Source: Planobacterium oryzisoli (GTDB taxonomy: Bacteria; Bacteroidota; Bacteroidia; Flavobacteriales; Weeksellaceae). From it: a stretch of DNA of 64,000 nucleotides. The stretch spans positions 124,001 through 188,000 of the forward strand of contig NZ_JADKYY010000001.1 of NCBI RefSeq assembly GCF_015354315.1, given 5' to 3'. Positions 30,295-37,173 of this stretch are shown here, one piece after another (position 1 is the first letter of the stretch; every line of letters starts with the position of its first letter). The translations under genes and the position numbers were made by a program. The notes under the pieces were generated by a model. That model was not told the DNA's origin. It saw only the letters and a program-made list of their open reading frames with translations, and searched no databases.

Positions 30295-30317
30295 CGTTTT
30301 CAGCTGTAGAAAGATTG

Positions 30318-30346
30318 ATAGCCGTACCTGACTCAGGTACGGCTAT
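30318..30346. terminator. Palindromic bidirectional terminator between kbl and the TSUP fusion
   Basis: ATAGCCGTACCTGA (30318-30331) and TCAGGTACGGCTAT (30333-30346) are perfect reverse complements with one central C. It sits between convergent genes. Confidence 0.7.
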
Positions 30347-30351
30347 TTGCT

Positions 30352-31875
30352 TTATAATAAAGCCCTACCAATGGTAATGCAGCTCATCACAATTACCGTG
30401 ATCCCAATAAAACGAAACATCATACGTACGGGTAGCCGCGACGTAAGAAGAGCTGAGAAGGGTGCAGTGACAATGCCGCCAATTAGTAAACCTAATACAA
30501 TATTCCAATGTTCAATGCCCATAGTAATGATGAAGGTTATGGCCGAAGTCAGAGTGAGCAGAAATTTGGAAACCGTAGAAGAACCCACAACGTATCGTGG
30601 TGTTCTACCGTCTTTCATCAGTGTTCCAGTAACAAGAGGTCCCCAGCCTCCGCCCGCAAATGAATCAATAAAGCCTCCAACCAAACCCAGCCGCCCTAAT
30701 TTGGTGGTTCTTTGTTGGTTGCGTTTTTGTGTTTTCTTTTTTGATGCATTACGTAAAATGTTGATACCTAGATACAGCGTATATAAAGATATTAAGGGCT
30801 TGACAATGGGAGCATAATGCTCGCCAAAGTAACTAAGTGCAAGTGCTCCTATGATAGCCCCTAGAATGGCGGGAGGTGCAAGGGCTTTGACAAGTTTGAG
30901 GTTGACATTTCGCAACTTGTAATGGCTGATACTTCCCGCAGCACTGGTAAAGGTTTCTGCCGAATGAATGCTGGCACTGACAACGGCGGGTGCTACATTC
31001 ATCAGTAGTAAAACCGTGGTACAAATTACCCCGTATCCCATACCCATACTACCTGCTACAATCTCTGCCAAGAAACCTATGGCCATCATCTTATAGAACA
31101 TATGCGCGTCTTTTGCTAGAAACGCCTGAAGATCTCCCGTTAAATTAAAATTAATCAGTATGAAGCCAAGCACTGCAGTAATAAGAAATACGCCGATGAT
31201 TCCCAAGTATATGTTTGCTCTTTTTTGTACGGCCTTTTTGACCTTACGCATATTTTCAAACTCCGAATCCTTCAAGGCCTTGGGCTCTAGTTGCTGAAGG
31301 TACTGCATGGTGATGTGGTCTAATTCACGCAGTTCTTGCTCTTTATTTAAAAGAGGATGTTTGTATACAGTTTGCAGTTTTTCTATAAACTCATCCAAAT
31401 CTGGAGGCAGGTTTCTTTCCAGGAGGTGATTTAGCCGCCTTTGCACTTGATACGGGTAATCGTTTGAGGAAACCCCTAATTTTATTCTTCTGTTTCCAAT
31501 CACCGACACAAGGGAGAAATCACTAAGATGCCATTTTCCATACACGTGCACAAACATGCGGTGTTTCTTAGCCAGCTCAATGAACTTATCTTCGGTTTCT
31601 TCCTGAGGAAATGCTAAAATCAGCAAGGAGAAATCTAGTAAGTCCTCCTCTTTTAATTCCCGCTCATACAATACTATAGAAAGGTCTTTCGCAAGCAATT
31701 TTTTTAATTTCTGCGTCGGATCTGGGCAATATATTTTAAGGGAAAGTGTGGAGTTAGGGTTGATAAGAAGTGGAAGCAATTCCAAAAGGCGCGCCGCGCC
31801 CCCTGCAGCACATAGAGGTACCCTTTCAAGATTAATGAAAAAAGGGTGCATGGCGCTGCTATGTAGACCTTCCAT
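30352..31875 (-). CDS. Siroheme-synthase-like domain fused to a TSUP (TauE/SafE) transporter
   Basis: 507 residues. Residues 1-195 resemble the CysG/Met8 N-terminal domain (FFINLERVPLCAAGGAARL, IKLGVSSNDYPYQVQRRLNHLLERNLPPDL). The canonical NAD-binding GGG is weakened, and the catalytic-Asp segment NVVDxP appears as VHVYGKWH. After a helical linker, residues about 235-507 form a TauE/SafE exporter with about eight helices (AGSMGMGYGVICTT, SAETFTSAAGSISHY, GLVGGFIDSFAGGGWGPLVTG). It is separated from cysN by 2 bases and is last in the sulfate operon. Transport of sulfite, sulfate or another sulfur anion is likely; enzyme activity of the front domain is doubtful. Confidence 0.88.
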   Translation of the reverse strand: MEGLHSSAMHPFFINLERVPLCAAGGAARLLELLPLLINPNSTLSLKIYCPDPTQKLKKLLAKDLSIVLYERELKEEDLLDFSLLILAFPQEETEDKFIELAKKHRMFVHVYGKWHLSDFSLVSVIGNRRIKLGVSSNDYPYQVQRRLNHLLERNLPPDLDEFIEKLQTVYKHPLLNKEQELRELDHITMQYLQQLEPKALKDSEFENMRKVKKAVQKRANIYLGIIGVFLITAVLGFILINFNLTGDLQAFLAKDAHMFYKMMAIGFLAEIVAGSMGMGYGVICTTVLLLMNVAPAVVSASIHSAETFTSAAGSISHYKLRNVNLKLVKALAPPAILGAIIGALALSYFGEHYAPIVKPLISLYTLYLGINILRNASKKKTQKRNQQRTTKLGRLGLVGGFIDSFAGGGWGPLVTGTLMKDGRTPRYVVGSSTVSKFLLTLTSAITFIITMGIEHWNIVLGLLIGGIVTAPFSALLTSRLPVRMMFRFIGITVIVMSCITIGRALL

Positions 31876-31877
31876 TG

Positions 31878-33116
31878 TTAGATAAACATTACTGCACCTA
31901 CTGTTGAATTGCTTGTCTCATCAATCAATATGGCGCTGCCCGTGGTGGGATTATCCGAGAAATTGTCGTAAACAAACTCTTGCGCTGCTTTAAGCCGAAG
32001 ATGTACAATCTCGTTGAGATGTACACTCTGCGGCTGTGGCTTTCTTTCCAAGGTGTTTACATCAAGTAAATAATCCACTTCATGTACAGCTACTTTAATC
32101 ATTCTGCTTTTCTGTTGCAGCAGGTATTTTGCTCCTTTAGTAAGAGGTTTATTTCCTAGCCAGCATACCAAAGCATTGGCCTGCTTATCAGTCCTAGGGA
32201 GTTGGTCCTCTTTTACAAAAAAGTCTCCTCTGGAGATATCAATATCGTCCGCCAGATGCAGCACAGCAGGCTGTCCGCTATGTACTTTCTCTACCGATTC
32301 GCCGTGAATTTCTATGGCGGTTATTGCAGAGGTCATTCCTGAGGGTAATACCTGTACACGGTCTCCTTTCTCAAAGTGTCCGCTTAGTATCTGCCCCGCG
32401 TAGCCCCGGTAGTCATGATACTCCTTAGTTTGAGGCCGGAGTACATACTGCACTTGAAATCTTGGTTGGGTGCTGTCGGCCGAGGAAAGTTCAATGGATT
32501 CTAAGAATCCAAGGAGTGTAGGACCTTTATACCATTCCATGGAATCGGAAGTTTCCACAATATTGTCCCCATGAAATGCACTGATAGGGAAATAGCTTAC
32601 CTGTGAGAGTCCCAGTTGGCTTGCGACTGTTTTGTATTGTTGAACAATGGAATCAAAGACGGACTGCTCGTAATTGACTAAATCCATTTTATTTACCGCC
32701 ACCACAATGTGCTTCATATTAAGAAGTGAAGCGATGATAGAGTGTCTTTTAGTTTGCTCTATAACTCCTTGACGTGCATCAATTAGAACTACCATCACCT
32801 CAGAATTGGAGGCTCCCGTAATCATATTGCGAGTATACTGTACATGTCCCGGTGCATCTGCAATGATGAATTTCCTTACTGGAGTAGCAAAATACCGGTA
32901 TGCAACATCGATTGTAATGCCTTGCTCTCTTTCGGCACGTAGACCGTCGGTTAGAATGGCCAGATCAATGCCTTGGGCATTCTTATTCTTGGACTGTGCT
33001 TCGAGTGCTTCTAGCTGGTCCACGAGAATGCTCTTGCTGTCATAAAGCAGACGGCCAATTAAAGTGCTTTTTCCATCATCCACGCTTCCGGCGGTAATAA
33101 AACGTAATATATCCAT
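31878..33116 (-). CDS. cysN: Sulfate adenylyltransferase subunit 1 (GTPase)
   Basis: 412 residues, shorter than E. coli CysN (475) and without a fused APS kinase. The EF-Tu-like GTPase motifs are complete: AGSVDDGKSTLIGRLLYD, DAPGHVQYTRNM and NKMDLVNY. A beta-barrel region follows. With CysD it couples GTP hydrolysis to APS formation from sulfate and ATP. It is positioned 17 bases after cysD in a five-gene co-oriented block. No CysC is encoded here, in keeping with direct APS reduction. Confidence 0.95.
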   Translation of the reverse strand: MDILRFITAGSVDDGKSTLIGRLLYDSKSILVDQLEALEAQSKNKNAQGIDLAILTDGLRAEREQGITIDVAYRYFATPVRKFIIADAPGHVQYTRNMITGASNSEVMVVLIDARQGVIEQTKRHSIIASLLNMKHIVVAVNKMDLVNYEQSVFDSIVQQYKTVASQLGLSQVSYFPISAFHGDNIVETSDSMEWYKGPTLLGFLESIELSSADSTQPRFQVQYVLRPQTKEYHDYRGYAGQILSGHFEKGDRVQVLPSGMTSAITAIEIHGESVEKVHSGQPAVLHLADDIDISRGDFFVKEDQLPRTDKQANALVCWLGNKPLTKGAKYLLQQKSRMIKVAVHEVDYLLDVNTLERKPQPQSVHLNEIVHLRLKAAQEFVYDNFSDNPTTGSAILIDETSNSTVGAVMFI

Positions 33117-33133: not shown

Positions 33134-34042
33134 TTAAAAATACCCTCCCTTTTTTCTATCTTCCATTGCTGCCTCCGTGACTTTGTCGTCAATCCGAGTC
33201 TCGCCACGTTCGGATATGCGTGATGCGGAGATTTCTTCAATAACTTGGTCCAGGGTAGTGGCATGACTTTCCACCGCGGCAGTACAGGTCATATCACCCA
33301 CCGTACGATAGCGCACTGTTTTTACCGAGACAGGGTCATGCGCATCGATCTGAATATGAGGAGAGACTGCAATAAGCTGCCCCTCGTACTCAAGAACTTC
33401 CCTCTGGTGCGCAAAATAGATCGAAGGAAGAGGGATGTTTTCACGGTTTATATAATTCCATACATCAAGTTCTGTCCAATTGGAGATAGGAAATACCCGT
33501 ACATTTTCCCCTTTGTGAATTCTTCCATTGTAGATGTTCCAGAGTTCTGGTCGTTGAAGCTTTGGATCCCATTGACCAAAGTCATCGCGGACGGAAAAAA
33601 AGCGTTCCTTAGCGCGCGCCTTTTCTTCGTCTCGGCGTGCACCGCCGATGCAGGCATCAAATCCAAACTCTTCGATGGTGTCCAGTAGTGTGTGGGTCTG
33701 TAGCCAGTTACGGGACGCAAATTTACCTTTAGGCTCCGTGAGTGCTTTGTCACGAATCGTATCCTCCACTTTACGTACGATAAGTTCCGCCCCCATTTCC
33801 CTAGCCAATCGGTCACGGAACTCCAGTGCCTCAGGGAAATTGTGTCCTGTATCTATATGTACAAGTGGGAATGGAAACTTCATCGGAGCAAATGCCTTAC
33901 GGGCCAGGTGGACTAACGTTATGGAGTCCTTTCCACCGCTGAAAAGAAGTGATGGTCTTTCAAACTGCGCGGCAACCTCGCGCATTATGTAAATGCTCTC
34001 GGCTTCCAGTTGGTCAAGATAATGGGATGTATTATTGTTCAT
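33134..34042 (-). CDS. cysD: Sulfate adenylyltransferase subunit 2
   Basis: 302 residues, the ATP-pyrophosphatase-fold subunit that adenylates sulfate. The PP-loop SGGKDSITLVHLARKAF, VHIDTGHNFPEALEFRD, GGARRDEEKARAKER, ISNWTELDVWNYI and the C-terminal SERGETRIDD are diagnostic. The length equals that of E. coli CysD. cysH ends 10 bases upstream of its start and cysN begins 17 bases downstream, so the three are one operon. Confidence 0.96.
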   Translation of the reverse strand: MNNNTSHYLDQLEAESIYIMREVAAQFERPSLLFSGGKDSITLVHLARKAFAPMKFPFPLVHIDTGHNFPEALEFRDRLAREMGAELIVRKVEDTIRDKALTEPKGKFASRNWLQTHTLLDTIEEFGFDACIGGARRDEEKARAKERFFSVRDDFGQWDPKLQRPELWNIYNGRIHKGENVRVFPISNWTELDVWNYINRENIPLPSIYFAHQREVLEYEGQLIAVSPHIQIDAHDPVSVKTVRYRTVGDMTCTAAVESHATTLDQVIEEISASRISERGETRIDDKVTEAAMEDRKKGGYF

Positions 34043-34052
34043 TTAGTGAGTT

Positions 34053-34745
34053 TTAATTGCTATGCAGTCCACATTCTTTATGGGATTCTTCCCACCACCA
34101 GCGACCTGCTCTTGGGTTCTCGCCTTCCACAATAGGACGAGTACAAGGCTGGCAGCCTACGCTGATGTAGCCTTTACTGTGGAGGGATAATTCCTGGACA
34201 TTTTGTTGCTTAAGATAATCCAAAACCTCTTGGTAGCTCCAGTGGAGCAGAGGATTGTACTTGTACAGTTGTTTCTGCTCGTCGTATTCGATAACAGAGA
34301 GCTGCTCTCTACTCTCGGACTGCTCAGAGCGAAGTCCTGTGATCCAAACCTTTGCCCCTTTCAGTGCACGGTTTAGAGGTTCTACCTTACGGATATAACA
34401 GCAACGCTTGCGGTTCTCTAGGGAGTGGTAAAAGCCATTTATTCCATGCGTGTTTACATAGTCCTCAGTCTGAGTCTGATCAGGAAAGTAGACATGGATT
34501 TTACGTTTGTAACGCGCCTGATTATTTGCAAGTAATGTATAATGTTCTGGAAACAGCCTCCCTGTGTCCAGGGTAAAGATGTTGATGGGTAAATTTTCCG
34601 TACACACCATATCGGTAAGTACCTGATCTTCCTGTCCCAAGGAAGTGGAAAAAACAACCCCTTGAGGAAAAAAGGAGGAAACGAGTCTAAGTCCTTCCAT
34701 AGGCGAAGATTCTGAAATTTCCTTGATTTGATGCATCTCTAACAT
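34053..34745 (-). CDS. cysH: Assimilatory APS reductase (CysH family)
   Basis: 230 residues. The PAPS-reductase fold has SSFFPQGVVFSTSLGQEDQVL, FTLDTGRLFPEHY, and WITGLRSEQSESR. The CC pair in KRCCYIRKVEPL and CQPC in SVGCQPCTRPI form the CC...CxxC set that binds a [4Fe-4S] cluster in APS reductases. This fits the absence of an APS kinase. The C-terminal ECGLHS motif carries the nucleophilic cysteine. The start is taken at ATG 34745, because the longer TTG at 34766 overlaps the -7 promoter box. It is the first structural gene of the sulfate operon. Confidence 0.93.
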   Translation of the reverse strand: MLEMHQIKEISESSPMEGLRLVSSFFPQGVVFSTSLGQEDQVLTDMVCTENLPINIFTLDTGRLFPEHYTLLANNQARYKRKIHVYFPDQTQTEDYVNTHGINGFYHSLENRKRCCYIRKVEPLNRALKGAKVWITGLRSEQSESREQLSVIEYDEQKQLYKYNPLLHWSYQEVLDYLKQQNVQELSLHSKGYISVGCQPCTRPIVEGENPRAGRWWWEESHKECGLHSN

Positions 34746-34763
34746 AGGCCGTTTTTGATGCAG

Positions 34764-34802
34764 CAAATGTACTTATTATTTAAAAACCTACAAAATTGGT
34801 AG
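34764..34802 (-). promoter_or_regulatory. cysH promoter with overlapping candidate operator
   Basis: Reading leftwards, TTG (34793-34791), 19 bases, then TACATTTG (34771-34764) make a consensus Bacteroidota promoter. The inverted repeat CTAC-N7-GTAG at 34788-34802 covers the TTG element. An Rrf2-family gene ends 5 bases away at 34807, so repression by that protein is a natural hypothesis. Confidence 0.6.
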
Positions 34803-34806
34803 ACTA

Positions 34807-35223
34807 TTAAGCACTTGTTGCAACTAGGTCTGCCAGGGTCTTTTTTTCAAGGATGGAAAGGGTAGCGTCTCGTACTTCAATCATGGTTTCATGCAGTCCG
34901 CAGTGTGTAGGTGTGCAGTTGATGCAGGTCTGATGAAAGTTCAGACTAACGCAGGGTAGTAGTGCTATGGGTCCGTTTACCAAGCGGATAATCTGGGCAA
35001 GACTGACTTCTTCCGGACGCTGTTTAAAGAAATAGCCACCTCCCTTTCCTTTTTTACTGCAAAGTATATCTGCTTTCTTAAGTTCCAATAGAATATTTTC
35101 TAGAAATTTTAAAGGAATGTTCTGACTTAGGGAAATTTTGGAAATTAGCACCGGTCCATTTCTCTCTTCTCTGATCAGGTAAGCCAGCGCACGAAATGCA
35201 TATTGAGATTTTTTGGATAGCAT
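34807..35223 (-). CDS. Rrf2-family transcriptional regulator
   Basis: 138 residues. It has the winged-helix N-terminus of Rrf2 proteins (MLSKKSQYAFRALAYLIRE, ISLSQNIPLKFLENILLELKKA, GKGGGYFFKQRPEEVSL). Cysteines C-x9-C-x2-C-x4-C (PCVSLNFHQTCINCTPTHCG) in the effector region could bind an Fe-S cluster or sense thiols, as in IscR or CymR. It stands just upstream of cysH in the same direction, which suggests control of sulfate assimilation in response to cysteine or Fe-S status. The ligand is inferred, not shown. Confidence 0.88.
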   Translation of the reverse strand: MLSKKSQYAFRALAYLIREERNGPVLISKISLSQNIPLKFLENILLELKKADILCSKKGKGGGYFFKQRPEEVSLAQIIRLVNGPIALLPCVSLNFHQTCINCTPTHCGLHETMIEVRDATLSILEKKTLADLVATSA

Positions 35224-36342: not shown

Positions 36343-37173
36343 TTAATCAAAAAACTCTACATATACTTTTTCTCCAACTTTCAGCCCAAAGAGCGTTTTA
36401 GCGCCGTTGGCTTTACTGCTTTTGTATATGCTTAATTCCAGTAATTCACTTTCATTGAATACTGCAACTCCTTTTCCATGGTATTCCCTTTCCTCAGACC
36501 AATCTTTTACAAAATCAGTATGTCTGTTGTACACGCTTGAAAGGGCCAGATTGCGGAACCTAATCAGAAAATTCGAATGGTTGAGACGTATTTTTTCAAA
36601 AAATTTCTTACTGATGTTAGAAACGACATTGCCGTAATTGTCAATATACATCACTTCGCCAATAATCATTTTTTCACTTTCACTATGTACCGCTCTAGGA
36701 AAGGACATTTGCTTTGGATGCTTAAATTTGCGTCCTATGACCTCTGGCACTCCTCCATTAAGCAAATGCACCGCAGAGGGAACAAATATATCGTTTGTGG
36801 TGGAACACACCTGATCGTCAAACCGGTTGTTTAGTGTAATTTCATAGATGGCCTCAGGTTTAATATCGAAAAAGATTAAGTCCAGGACTCCGTTATCCGC
36901 CGAAATAAAATAATGACCGTCGGCTTTATACAATACAGATTTTACATGCTTGGAATAAAAGCTGTCCACCGATATAATATGAATGCTGCCGGCCGGAAAG
37001 TATTTGTAGGCGTTACGAACTATGTAAGCCGTCTGAAGCAGGTTGTACGCTTCAATCTCGTGCGAAATATCAACAATGATTGCGTCCCGTTTTTGAGAGA
37101 GAATGCTCCCCTTGATAGAGGATACCCTATAGTCAACTAATCCAAAATCGGAAGTAAGCGTAATAACCGGCAT
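36343..37173 (-). CDS. SAM hydroxide adenosyltransferase (DUF62 family)
   Basis: 276 residues, relative of fluorinase and chlorinase. The N-terminal ITLTSDFGLVDYRVSSIKGSI, IVDISHEIEAYNLLQTAYIVRNAYKYFP, and YFISADNGVLDLIF are typical, and a C-terminal beta-barrel follows (VMYIDNYGNVVSNI, FNESELLELSIY). Family members hydrolyse SAM to adenosine and methionine with a hydroxide nucleophile. Halogenase activity is not indicated. It is upstream of hemJ in the same operon. Confidence 0.87.
   Translation of the reverse strand: MPVITLTSDFGLVDYRVSSIKGSILSQKRDAIIVDISHEIEAYNLLQTAYIVRNAYKYFPAGSIHIISVDSFYSKHVKSVLYKADGHYFISADNGVLDLIFFDIKPEAIYEITLNNRFDDQVCSTTNDIFVPSAVHLLNGGVPEVIGRKFKHPKQMSFPRAVHSESEKMIIGEVMYIDNYGNVVSNISKKFFEKIRLNHSNFLIRFRNLALSSVYNRHTDFVKDWSEEREYHGKGVAVFNESELLELSIYKSSKANGAKTLFGLKVGEKVYVEFFD

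Follow-up and report, generated by a model that had tools for sequence, protein, structure and literature searches.

A decayed siroheme-synthase domain retained on a TSUP permease in the sulfate operon of Planobacterium oryzisoli

The window, a 64,000-nucleotide stretch of Planobacterium oryzisoli DNA, contains a minus-strand gene (30352–31875) encoding a 507-residue protein, in which a decayed siroheme-synthase domain of the CysG-B/Met8 type is fused to a TSUP (TauE/SafE) transporter, as defined by the open reading frame, profile matches and relatives. That the N-terminal part is a non-enzyme domain is well supported by its residues, and in relatives without the siroheme pathway the dead domain is under purifying selection, as expected of a repurposed domain. 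We consider it reasonably probable that the protein is a sulfate-uptake permease carrying a pseudoenzyme domain, which has been retained for a structural or regulatory role in it, and that the sulfite-making operon around it feeds sulfonolipid synthesis.

Fusion protein and its lost active site

The plus strand across 30352–31875 is full of stops, and the 507-residue frame lies on the minus strand. The transporter domain occupies residues 264–498 (30382–31086, minus strand), where the Pfam TauE profile (PF01925) matches with an E-value of 5e-39 and 134.7 bits against a cut-off of 32.6. The pseudo-siroheme-synthase region spans residues 1–205 (31261–31875, minus strand) and consists of a Rossmann part (residues ~8–124) and a helical, dimerisation-like part (residues ~125–200), as delineated by NCBIfam CysG and fold model matches. 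The NCBIfam CysG model PRK10637 covers residues 10–181 (E 2.6e-11) and TIGR01470 covers residues 11–163 (E 1.2e-7), both far under their curated cut-offs, and the Pfam model NAD_binding_7 scores 19.8 bits on residues 46–122 in the search with the window protein and 22.6 bits in the whole-genome search, against a cut-off of 22.1. An initial annotation, made from the sequence alone, had aligned the front ~195 residues with CysG/Met8, and the two NCBIfam matches bear this out; judged by these profiles, the N-terminal part is a genuine but eroded homologue of siroheme synthase. A chance architecture is ruled out because the same fusion occurs in both Weeksellaceae and Chitinophagaceae (Niabella and MAGs). 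A phmmer search of the whole window protein against the PDB returned a single chance-like match, and the first contig scan with this single protein as the query returned 0 relatives.

The AlphaFold model of the fusion has a mean pLDDT of 64, with values mostly of 70–85 in the Rossmann part and below 50 for residues 124–182 and 184–210. CysG, SirC and Met8 are the first PDB matches of the fold model; the top match, CysG (E 5e-5), superimposes with a TM of 0.2 and an rmsd of 14.6 over 213 columns, because much of the model outside the Rossmann part is poorly modelled. The prediction supports a Rossmann fold for the N-terminal part, and nothing beyond it rests on the model.

To transfer the CysG numbering, an intact relative was aligned to PDB 1pjq. 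In the window protein, a remnant of the Rossmann glycine motif is present at G25-G26-A27 (31795–31803, minus strand). The catalytic loop is replaced by VHVYGKWH (residues 109–116; 31528–31551, minus strand), with G113 aligned at the position of CysG D104, and SSNDYPY (residues 136–142; 31450–31470, minus strand) corresponds in the alignment to CysG S127–P133, with a serine at the S128 position and P133 lost. Relative to CysG, the alignment thus gives D104 replaced by G113, K27 by L33, P133 by Y142, R140 by N149 and GGG by GGA, which confirms the weakened NAD-binding glycines and replaced catalytic aspartate segment described in the initial annotation. Substitution of D104 by Ala in CysG is reported to abolish both the dehydrogenase and the chelatase activity (PMC7018833).

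Relatives were sorted into class A (intact), class B (dead, full length), class C (truncated N-domain) and class D (N-domain absent). A total of 230 genomes match, and 44 sequences (24, 9, 9 and 2 in classes A to D), which comprise the window, 24 of the 30 best loci and the fetched neighbourhoods, were classified. The 24 intact fusions, all from sulfite-reductase-positive genomes, invariably keep GGG, K27, D104 and P133, and R140 is present in 23/24. GGG, K27 and D104 are found in 0/9 class B fusions (the window included) and R140 in 1/9, while P133 is kept in 8/9, the window being the sole exception. D119 and F120 are retained in 9/9 class B fusions, and the S128 position is occupied by Ser in 8/9, versus Thr in 24/24 intact fusions. 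Class C fusions have D104 and K27 in 0/9 and GGG in 6/9, and the S127–P133 stretch is deleted in 9/9.

Compared with CysG-B and Met8p, the domain has an alignable sequence and a predicted fold of the same kind (an intact fusion domain matches CysG at 2e-14). The differences are the lost residues (D104, K27, R140, P133 and the third glycine of GGG), a substrate pathway that was not found in the genome, and the fusion partner, which is a methyltransferase in CysG and a permease in the window.

Sulfate operon, siroheme pathway and relatives

The fusion gene ends a minus-strand row of Rrf2-cysH-cysD-cysN-fusion. The row is headed by a regulator gene of the Rrf2 family (34807–35223; 66–73% identity in six other reductase-less operons), followed by cysH (34053–34766), assigned by family to the APS/PAPS reductases, with CC..CxxC cysteines that we take to be of the APS type. 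Next are cysD (33134–34042), the small subunit of sulfate adenylyltransferase by family (75–88% identity in 12 other mapped reductase-less operons), and cysN (31878–33116), which encodes the 412-residue large subunit, a GTPase assigned by family and context; all four genes are on the minus strand. As originally annotated, although with no strand given, the fusion lies last, 2 bases after cysN. A terminator-like hairpin of 13–14 pairs with T-rich tails (30317–30347), which is a consensus match only, separates the operon from the convergent kbl gene; terminator-like sites in the region number 8 versus 5.5 in shuffles. The Rrf2-type regulator contains four closely spaced cysteines, and its relatives in reductase clusters are 42–50% identical; it might sense the sulfur or redox state. 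A gene of the SAM hydroxide adenosyltransferase family (PF01887, PF20257) is located near the operon at 36343–37173.

The window operon contains no sulfite reductase, flavoprotein of that reductase, uroporphyrinogen methyltransferase, cysE or cysK (names such as cysE, cysK, cysJ and RsmI were assigned from families and sequences). The search was extended to the whole genome, which is 2.1 Mb in 20 contigs and 99.98% complete. PF13241 (NAD_binding_7) has four matches, the fusion and three others that we interpret as S-adenosylhomocysteinase, a 3-hydroxybutyryl-CoA dehydrogenase and a protein of the KefB type, so that the genome contains no second siroheme-synthase domain. PF00590 has one match, which reads as RsmI, and a uroporphyrinogen methyltransferase was not found in the genome; PF01077, the siroheme sulfite reductase family, has 0 matches. 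With neither methyltransferase nor reductase found, the genome gives no sign of a substrate for the domain or of an enzyme that would need siroheme. The initial annotation had counted the lack of any other siroheme synthase as a point against a non-enzymatic domain. A separate cysG or sirC gene is indeed not found in the genome, but this does not rescue an enzymatic function, since the siroheme pathway seems to be absent altogether, and the proposal that the domain does not act as an enzyme holds. With its catalytic and cofactor residues replaced and its substrate pathway not found, an active siroheme synthase is out as a candidate and, by the residues and gene content, very unlikely.

The fusion is a widespread Bacteroidota architecture, of which the dead version is a variant; among the literature matches listed, judged by title and the start of the abstract, none concerns such a fusion. 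The term 'siroheme' is absent among the matches listed in a further search on the fusion, and the matches listed for Kaistella and sulfite reductase are unrelated by title. Intact fusions occur in Chryseobacterium, Elizabethkingia, Soonwooa, Cloacibacterium and Niabella and, among the best 80 of 245 relatives, are 43–52% identical to the window protein over nearly the full length. In six mapped neighbourhoods (G045, G023, G050, G059, G011 and G017), the fusion ends a cluster of cysH-D-N, methyltransferase, CysJ-like flavoprotein and sulfite reductase genes, with cysE in four and cysK in five; families were run on the G059 genes, and the genes of the other five were assigned by clustering. The row of the window, G001 and G027 is Rrf2-cysH-D-N-fusion only. 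The N-domain is cut to ~130 residues in the nine class C genomes (one of them, G033, is without cysHDN in the fetched stretch), and in G021 and G043 the cysHDN operon has a TSUP-only version (class D). By whole-genome search PF01077 is present in 113/320 family genomes, with 24/24 in class A, 0/9 in class B, 0/9 in class C and 0/2 in class D. For absence of the methyltransferase, the genome-wide check covered 99 genomes, a set to which the six Kaistella-type genomes of class B do not belong.

The set of named genomes comprises the best 80 of the 245 relatives; 79 gave a fusion ORF, 77 with a readable enzyme domain (L243, where a 524-residue fusion lies beside CysI- and SUMT-like ORFs, was left out by the position filter). 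The aspartate is kept together with a reductase and a methyltransferase in the fetched stretch in 71/79; the intact fusions thus have the architecture of the window protein, and differ from it in keeping the active-site residues, with both genes nearby in 71/71. Two of the 79 are TSUP-only ORFs adjoining a reductase. The remaining six lack D104, and reductase and methyltransferase are absent from the fetched stretch. The D104 site is Gly in three Kaistella and in MAG UBA1694, Asn in Halpernia frigidisoli and Tyr in a Chitinophagaceae MAG. The whole-genome reductase search agrees for the genomes taken as Kaistella (g26), UBA1694 (G001) and Halpernia (G007), while for the Chitinophagaceae MAG absence of both genes refers to the fetched stretch only. 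There (L255:3714–9530), a shortened CysJ-like ORF (368 residues) and then the Tyr-bearing fusion come after cysH-D-N, apparently an independent case outside Weeksellaceae. As in the window, kbl and a DacB-like gene flank the operon in the three Kaistella, UBA1694 and Halpernia loci, and because of these common flanks the operons probably stand at one ancestral place.

Genus g26, taken as Kaistella, has both a full-length dead fusion (L183–L185) and a truncated one whose permease belongs to another subtype (L088, L089; G047, G026). Both kinds are flanked by kbl and the DacB-like gene, and these shared surroundings suggest gene replacement in place. Many g21 (Chryseobacterium-type) genomes contain, besides the intact fusion, an extra TSUP-only gene of ~298 residues (for example G059:C1:2403627–2404523), which is ~58–65% identical to the window permease part among the matches listed. 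In Chryseobacterium ureilyticum and a Sphingobacteriales MAG (L258:8001–8978, L249), the two halves are separate ORFs beside the reductase cluster, either by a natural split or by a sequencing error.

A tree built from the permease part (37 rows; the outgroup used as root is assumed) groups the dead full-length fusions of class B in one clade with support of 99/96, and truncated class C requires at least three changes of state; the long branches of G008, G011, G003, G017 and G033 make some placements unsure. These changes of state, together with the Chitinophagaceae case, indicate several independent losses. The sequences point to an active site lost several times, each in a lineage in which no reductase was detected, although the tree alone cannot separate gain from loss.

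The permease and the outlet for sulfite

The permease most likely imports sulfate, by analogy with CysZ of Corynebacterium glutamicum, a TSUP sulfate importer that is likewise encoded with sulfate-assimilation genes in a cys operon (PMC5840216). The two systems differ in that the consulted part of that source mentions no siroheme-domain fusion, and in that the window operon stops at sulfite. Instead of sulfate import, the permease could export sulfite as a TauE/SafE-like safety valve, in line with the anion export proposed in the initial annotation; the Pfam family is named TauE/SafE, and no sulfite reductase was found in the genome. We regard export as rather unlikely, since making sulfite merely to discard it would be costly, CysZ sets a precedent for import in a cys operon (PMC5840216), and the same kind of permease is also present in complete operons with a reductase.

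If sulfate is imported, the sulfite made from it requires an outlet. The sulfur donor for CapA, a cysteate synthase, is sulfite. Outside the window, at about 100033–102450 of contig 17 of the same genome (G000:C17; L180:4034–6451), genes for a CapA-like cysteate synthase and a cysteate fatty acyltransferase adjoin each other. The CapA-like gene, a PALP enzyme, is 55–100 bp upstream of the acyltransferase gene (the range reflects two possible starts), and its best NCBIfam model is NF053679 (CapA cysteate synthase) with 546 bits against a cut-off of 600, compared with 452 for a paralogue. The acyltransferase matches PDB 28eh at 2e-189 and 7u7h, which by its name and match we read as the Alistipes SulA structure, at 4e-170. 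Its FAKSL aligns with the AKSL of the SulA type and keeps the Lys281 equivalent, where the serine palmitoyltransferase 3a2b has Ala; this diagnostic Lys is reported to separate SulA from serine palmitoyltransferase (PMC9304779), and CapA to produce cysteate from phosphoserine by sulfonation (PMC10191378).

Given this CapA-like and CapB/SulA-like pair, an outlet for sulfite exists in the genome, and the organism probably makes sulfonolipids, to which the cysHDN operon would most likely supply the sulfite. The genome resembles those with CapA/CapB (Capnocytophaga) and SulA (Alistipes) in having the two genes adjacent; it differs in that the pair lies apart from the cysHDN operon on the chromosome, and the supply of sulfite is deduced. 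The acyltransferase is matched in 320/320 family genomes, including all 85 without CysD (E ≤ 1e-100 in 319, these 85 among them, and only 2.9e-49 in G014). Because it is near-universal with or without CysD, co-occurrence does not tie it to the operon, and a link by this route was set aside as uninformative. CysK is present in the genome with a score over its cut-off, so that cysteine synthesis probably draws on sulfide obtained in some other way.

CysD is matched in 235/320 family genomes, among which are 112 of the 113 with PF01077; this leaves 123 by hand count, with G016, G033 and G238 weak. A sulfate route ending at sulfite therefore looks common, with roughly 120/320 family genomes by their gene content. 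Among the matches listed, the literature on sulfonolipids together with sulfate assimilation consists of a review only. Sulfonolipids have been associated with gliding (PMC12927429) and with proinflammatory activity (PMC11211663).

Selection on the retained domain and its possible role

A neutral domain is expected to have a dN/dS near 1. The ratio was estimated by the NG86 count method; pairs share branches and are not independent, and saturated or very small dS values were dropped from the medians. In class B Kaistella (6 genomes, 15 pairs), the median is 0.103 (range 0.075–0.293) for the Rossmann part, 0.068 for the helical part (14 usable pairs) and 0.046 for the permease. In 14/15 pairs dS exceeds dN at p<0.01 for the Rossmann and helical parts alike; the fifteenth and closest pair is nearly identical (p 0.05 for the Rossmann part and 1 for the identical mid region). 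The active fusions of Chryseobacterium give medians of 0.104 (31 usable of 45 pairs), 0.083 (40) and 0.046 (43) for the Rossmann part, helical part and permease, respectively, and those of Elizabethkingia (g23, 6 pairs) give 0.042, 0.018 and 0.023. The truncated domains are also constrained: the Rossmann median is 0.034 (range 0.026–0.045, 3 pairs) against 0.017 for the permease in class C genus g9, and the single truncated Kaistella pair gives 0.105 and 0.035. Dividing the Rossmann median by the permease median gives 2.2 for dead Kaistella, 2.3 for Chryseobacterium and 1.8 for Elizabethkingia, so the dead domain is constrained to a degree that is also seen in active domains. Purifying selection is thus observed for Kaistella and genus g9; the rate on the window's own branch is not measurable because the sole congener is saturated at silent sites.

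The domain could nevertheless be a neutral relic, which persists by its in-frame fusion to a needed permease and is worn down by substitutions and in-frame deletions before it finally disappears. The graded series from intact through dead full length and truncated to absent fits such decay, as does the divergence between lineages: across 21 class B pairs with a permease identity of ~70–80% the Rossmann part is only 26–43% identical, whereas it is 56–71% identical in 17 class A pairs with a permease identity of 75–80%. We find a relic unlikely and reject it as the sole explanation on the dN/dS values, which in dead Kaistella are like those of active Chryseobacterium and are low in the truncated domains as well; the retention of D119 and F120 throughout class B also argues against it. 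Low identity between class B lineages combined with low dN/dS within genera suggests to us that constraint was first loosened and later restored.

Retention under constraint suggests that the domain has a different job for the transporter, and regulation of the permease is a plausible candidate. The initial annotation had proposed sensing of a tetrapyrrole or a nucleotide. Tetrapyrrole sensing finds no backing and is unlikely because no uroporphyrinogen methyltransferase was found and the CysG tetrapyrrole-contact residues are replaced. Nucleotide sensing is weakened in class B by the loss of GGG, although the motif persists in six of the nine class C fusions.

A dead domain with a retained ligand site is another candidate, in which the S128 region would sense sulfate, sulfite or APS and gate the permease. 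Met8p of yeast is reported to have a tightly bound sulfate at the place matching S128 (PMC7018833). The serine typical of class B at this position, the purifying selection and the role of sulfate as the starting substrate of the operon are in favor of this proposal, but truncated relatives have deleted the S128 stretch, so an oxyanion sensor cannot be the mechanism common to all, and the helical part is modelled with pLDDT below 50; we view it as distinctly improbable. The same low standing applies to its widest form, a Bacteroidota permease class whose pseudo-siroheme-synthase has become an allosteric oxyanion (sulfate, sulfite, APS) sensor at the Met8p sulfate site and would gate sulfate entry into a shortened route that ends in sulfite for sulfonolipids, not sulfide for cysteine, with the change from enzyme to regulator made several times independently, each after reductase loss. 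Finally, residual activity in siroheme synthesis, perhaps just as a dehydrogenase like SirC while chelation takes place elsewhere, is hardly credible: the homologous SirC also lacks the D104 equivalent and is reported to be active (PMC7018833), but the window domain has in addition lost GGG, K27 and the CysG tetrapyrrole-contact residues, and neither a methyltransferase for precorrin-2 nor a siroheme sulfite reductase as user was found.

Our preferred reading remains a pseudoenzyme domain on a sulfate-uptake permease. The ancestral gene would have closed a complete operon leading from sulfate to sulfide (cysteine) and joined a precorrin-2 dehydrogenase/ferrochelatase domain to a TSUP anion permease; this fusion probably supplied siroheme for the sulfite reductase. 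In the window, the reductase, flavoprotein, methyltransferase, cysE and cysK are absent from the operon; the domain lost its catalytic and cofactor residues and stayed fused, and in relatives without the pathway it is held by selection. The permease most likely brings in sulfate, which CysDN and CysH would convert to sulfite by their family assignments, and the sulfite most likely passes through the CapA-like cysteate synthase and the CapB/SulA acyltransferase into sulfonolipids. What is left of the domain most likely acts on the cytosolic side as a module of the permease, for structure, oligomerisation or response to a ligand. Several points count against this reading: the domain is dispensable in some lineages (the TSUP-only operons of G021 and G043); the active Elizabethkingia fusion is more constrained than that of dead Kaistella in the Rossmann part (0.042 versus 0.103), as is its permease (0.023 versus 0.046); the low Rossmann identity between class B lineages speaks for a relaxed phase; selection is not measurable on the window's own branch, and the closest Kaistella pair is uninformative; the CapA-like score falls under the curated cut-off, with an acyltransferase that is near-universal in the family; and the CysK makes use of sulfide from elsewhere probable.

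The fusions form a natural series from active to dead, truncated and absent, repeated in Weeksellaceae and probably in Chitinophagaceae, which illustrates how a transporter-fused enzyme can change its role once its pathway disappears. A shortened route from sulfate that goes no further than sulfite would also give a testable link to sulfonolipids.
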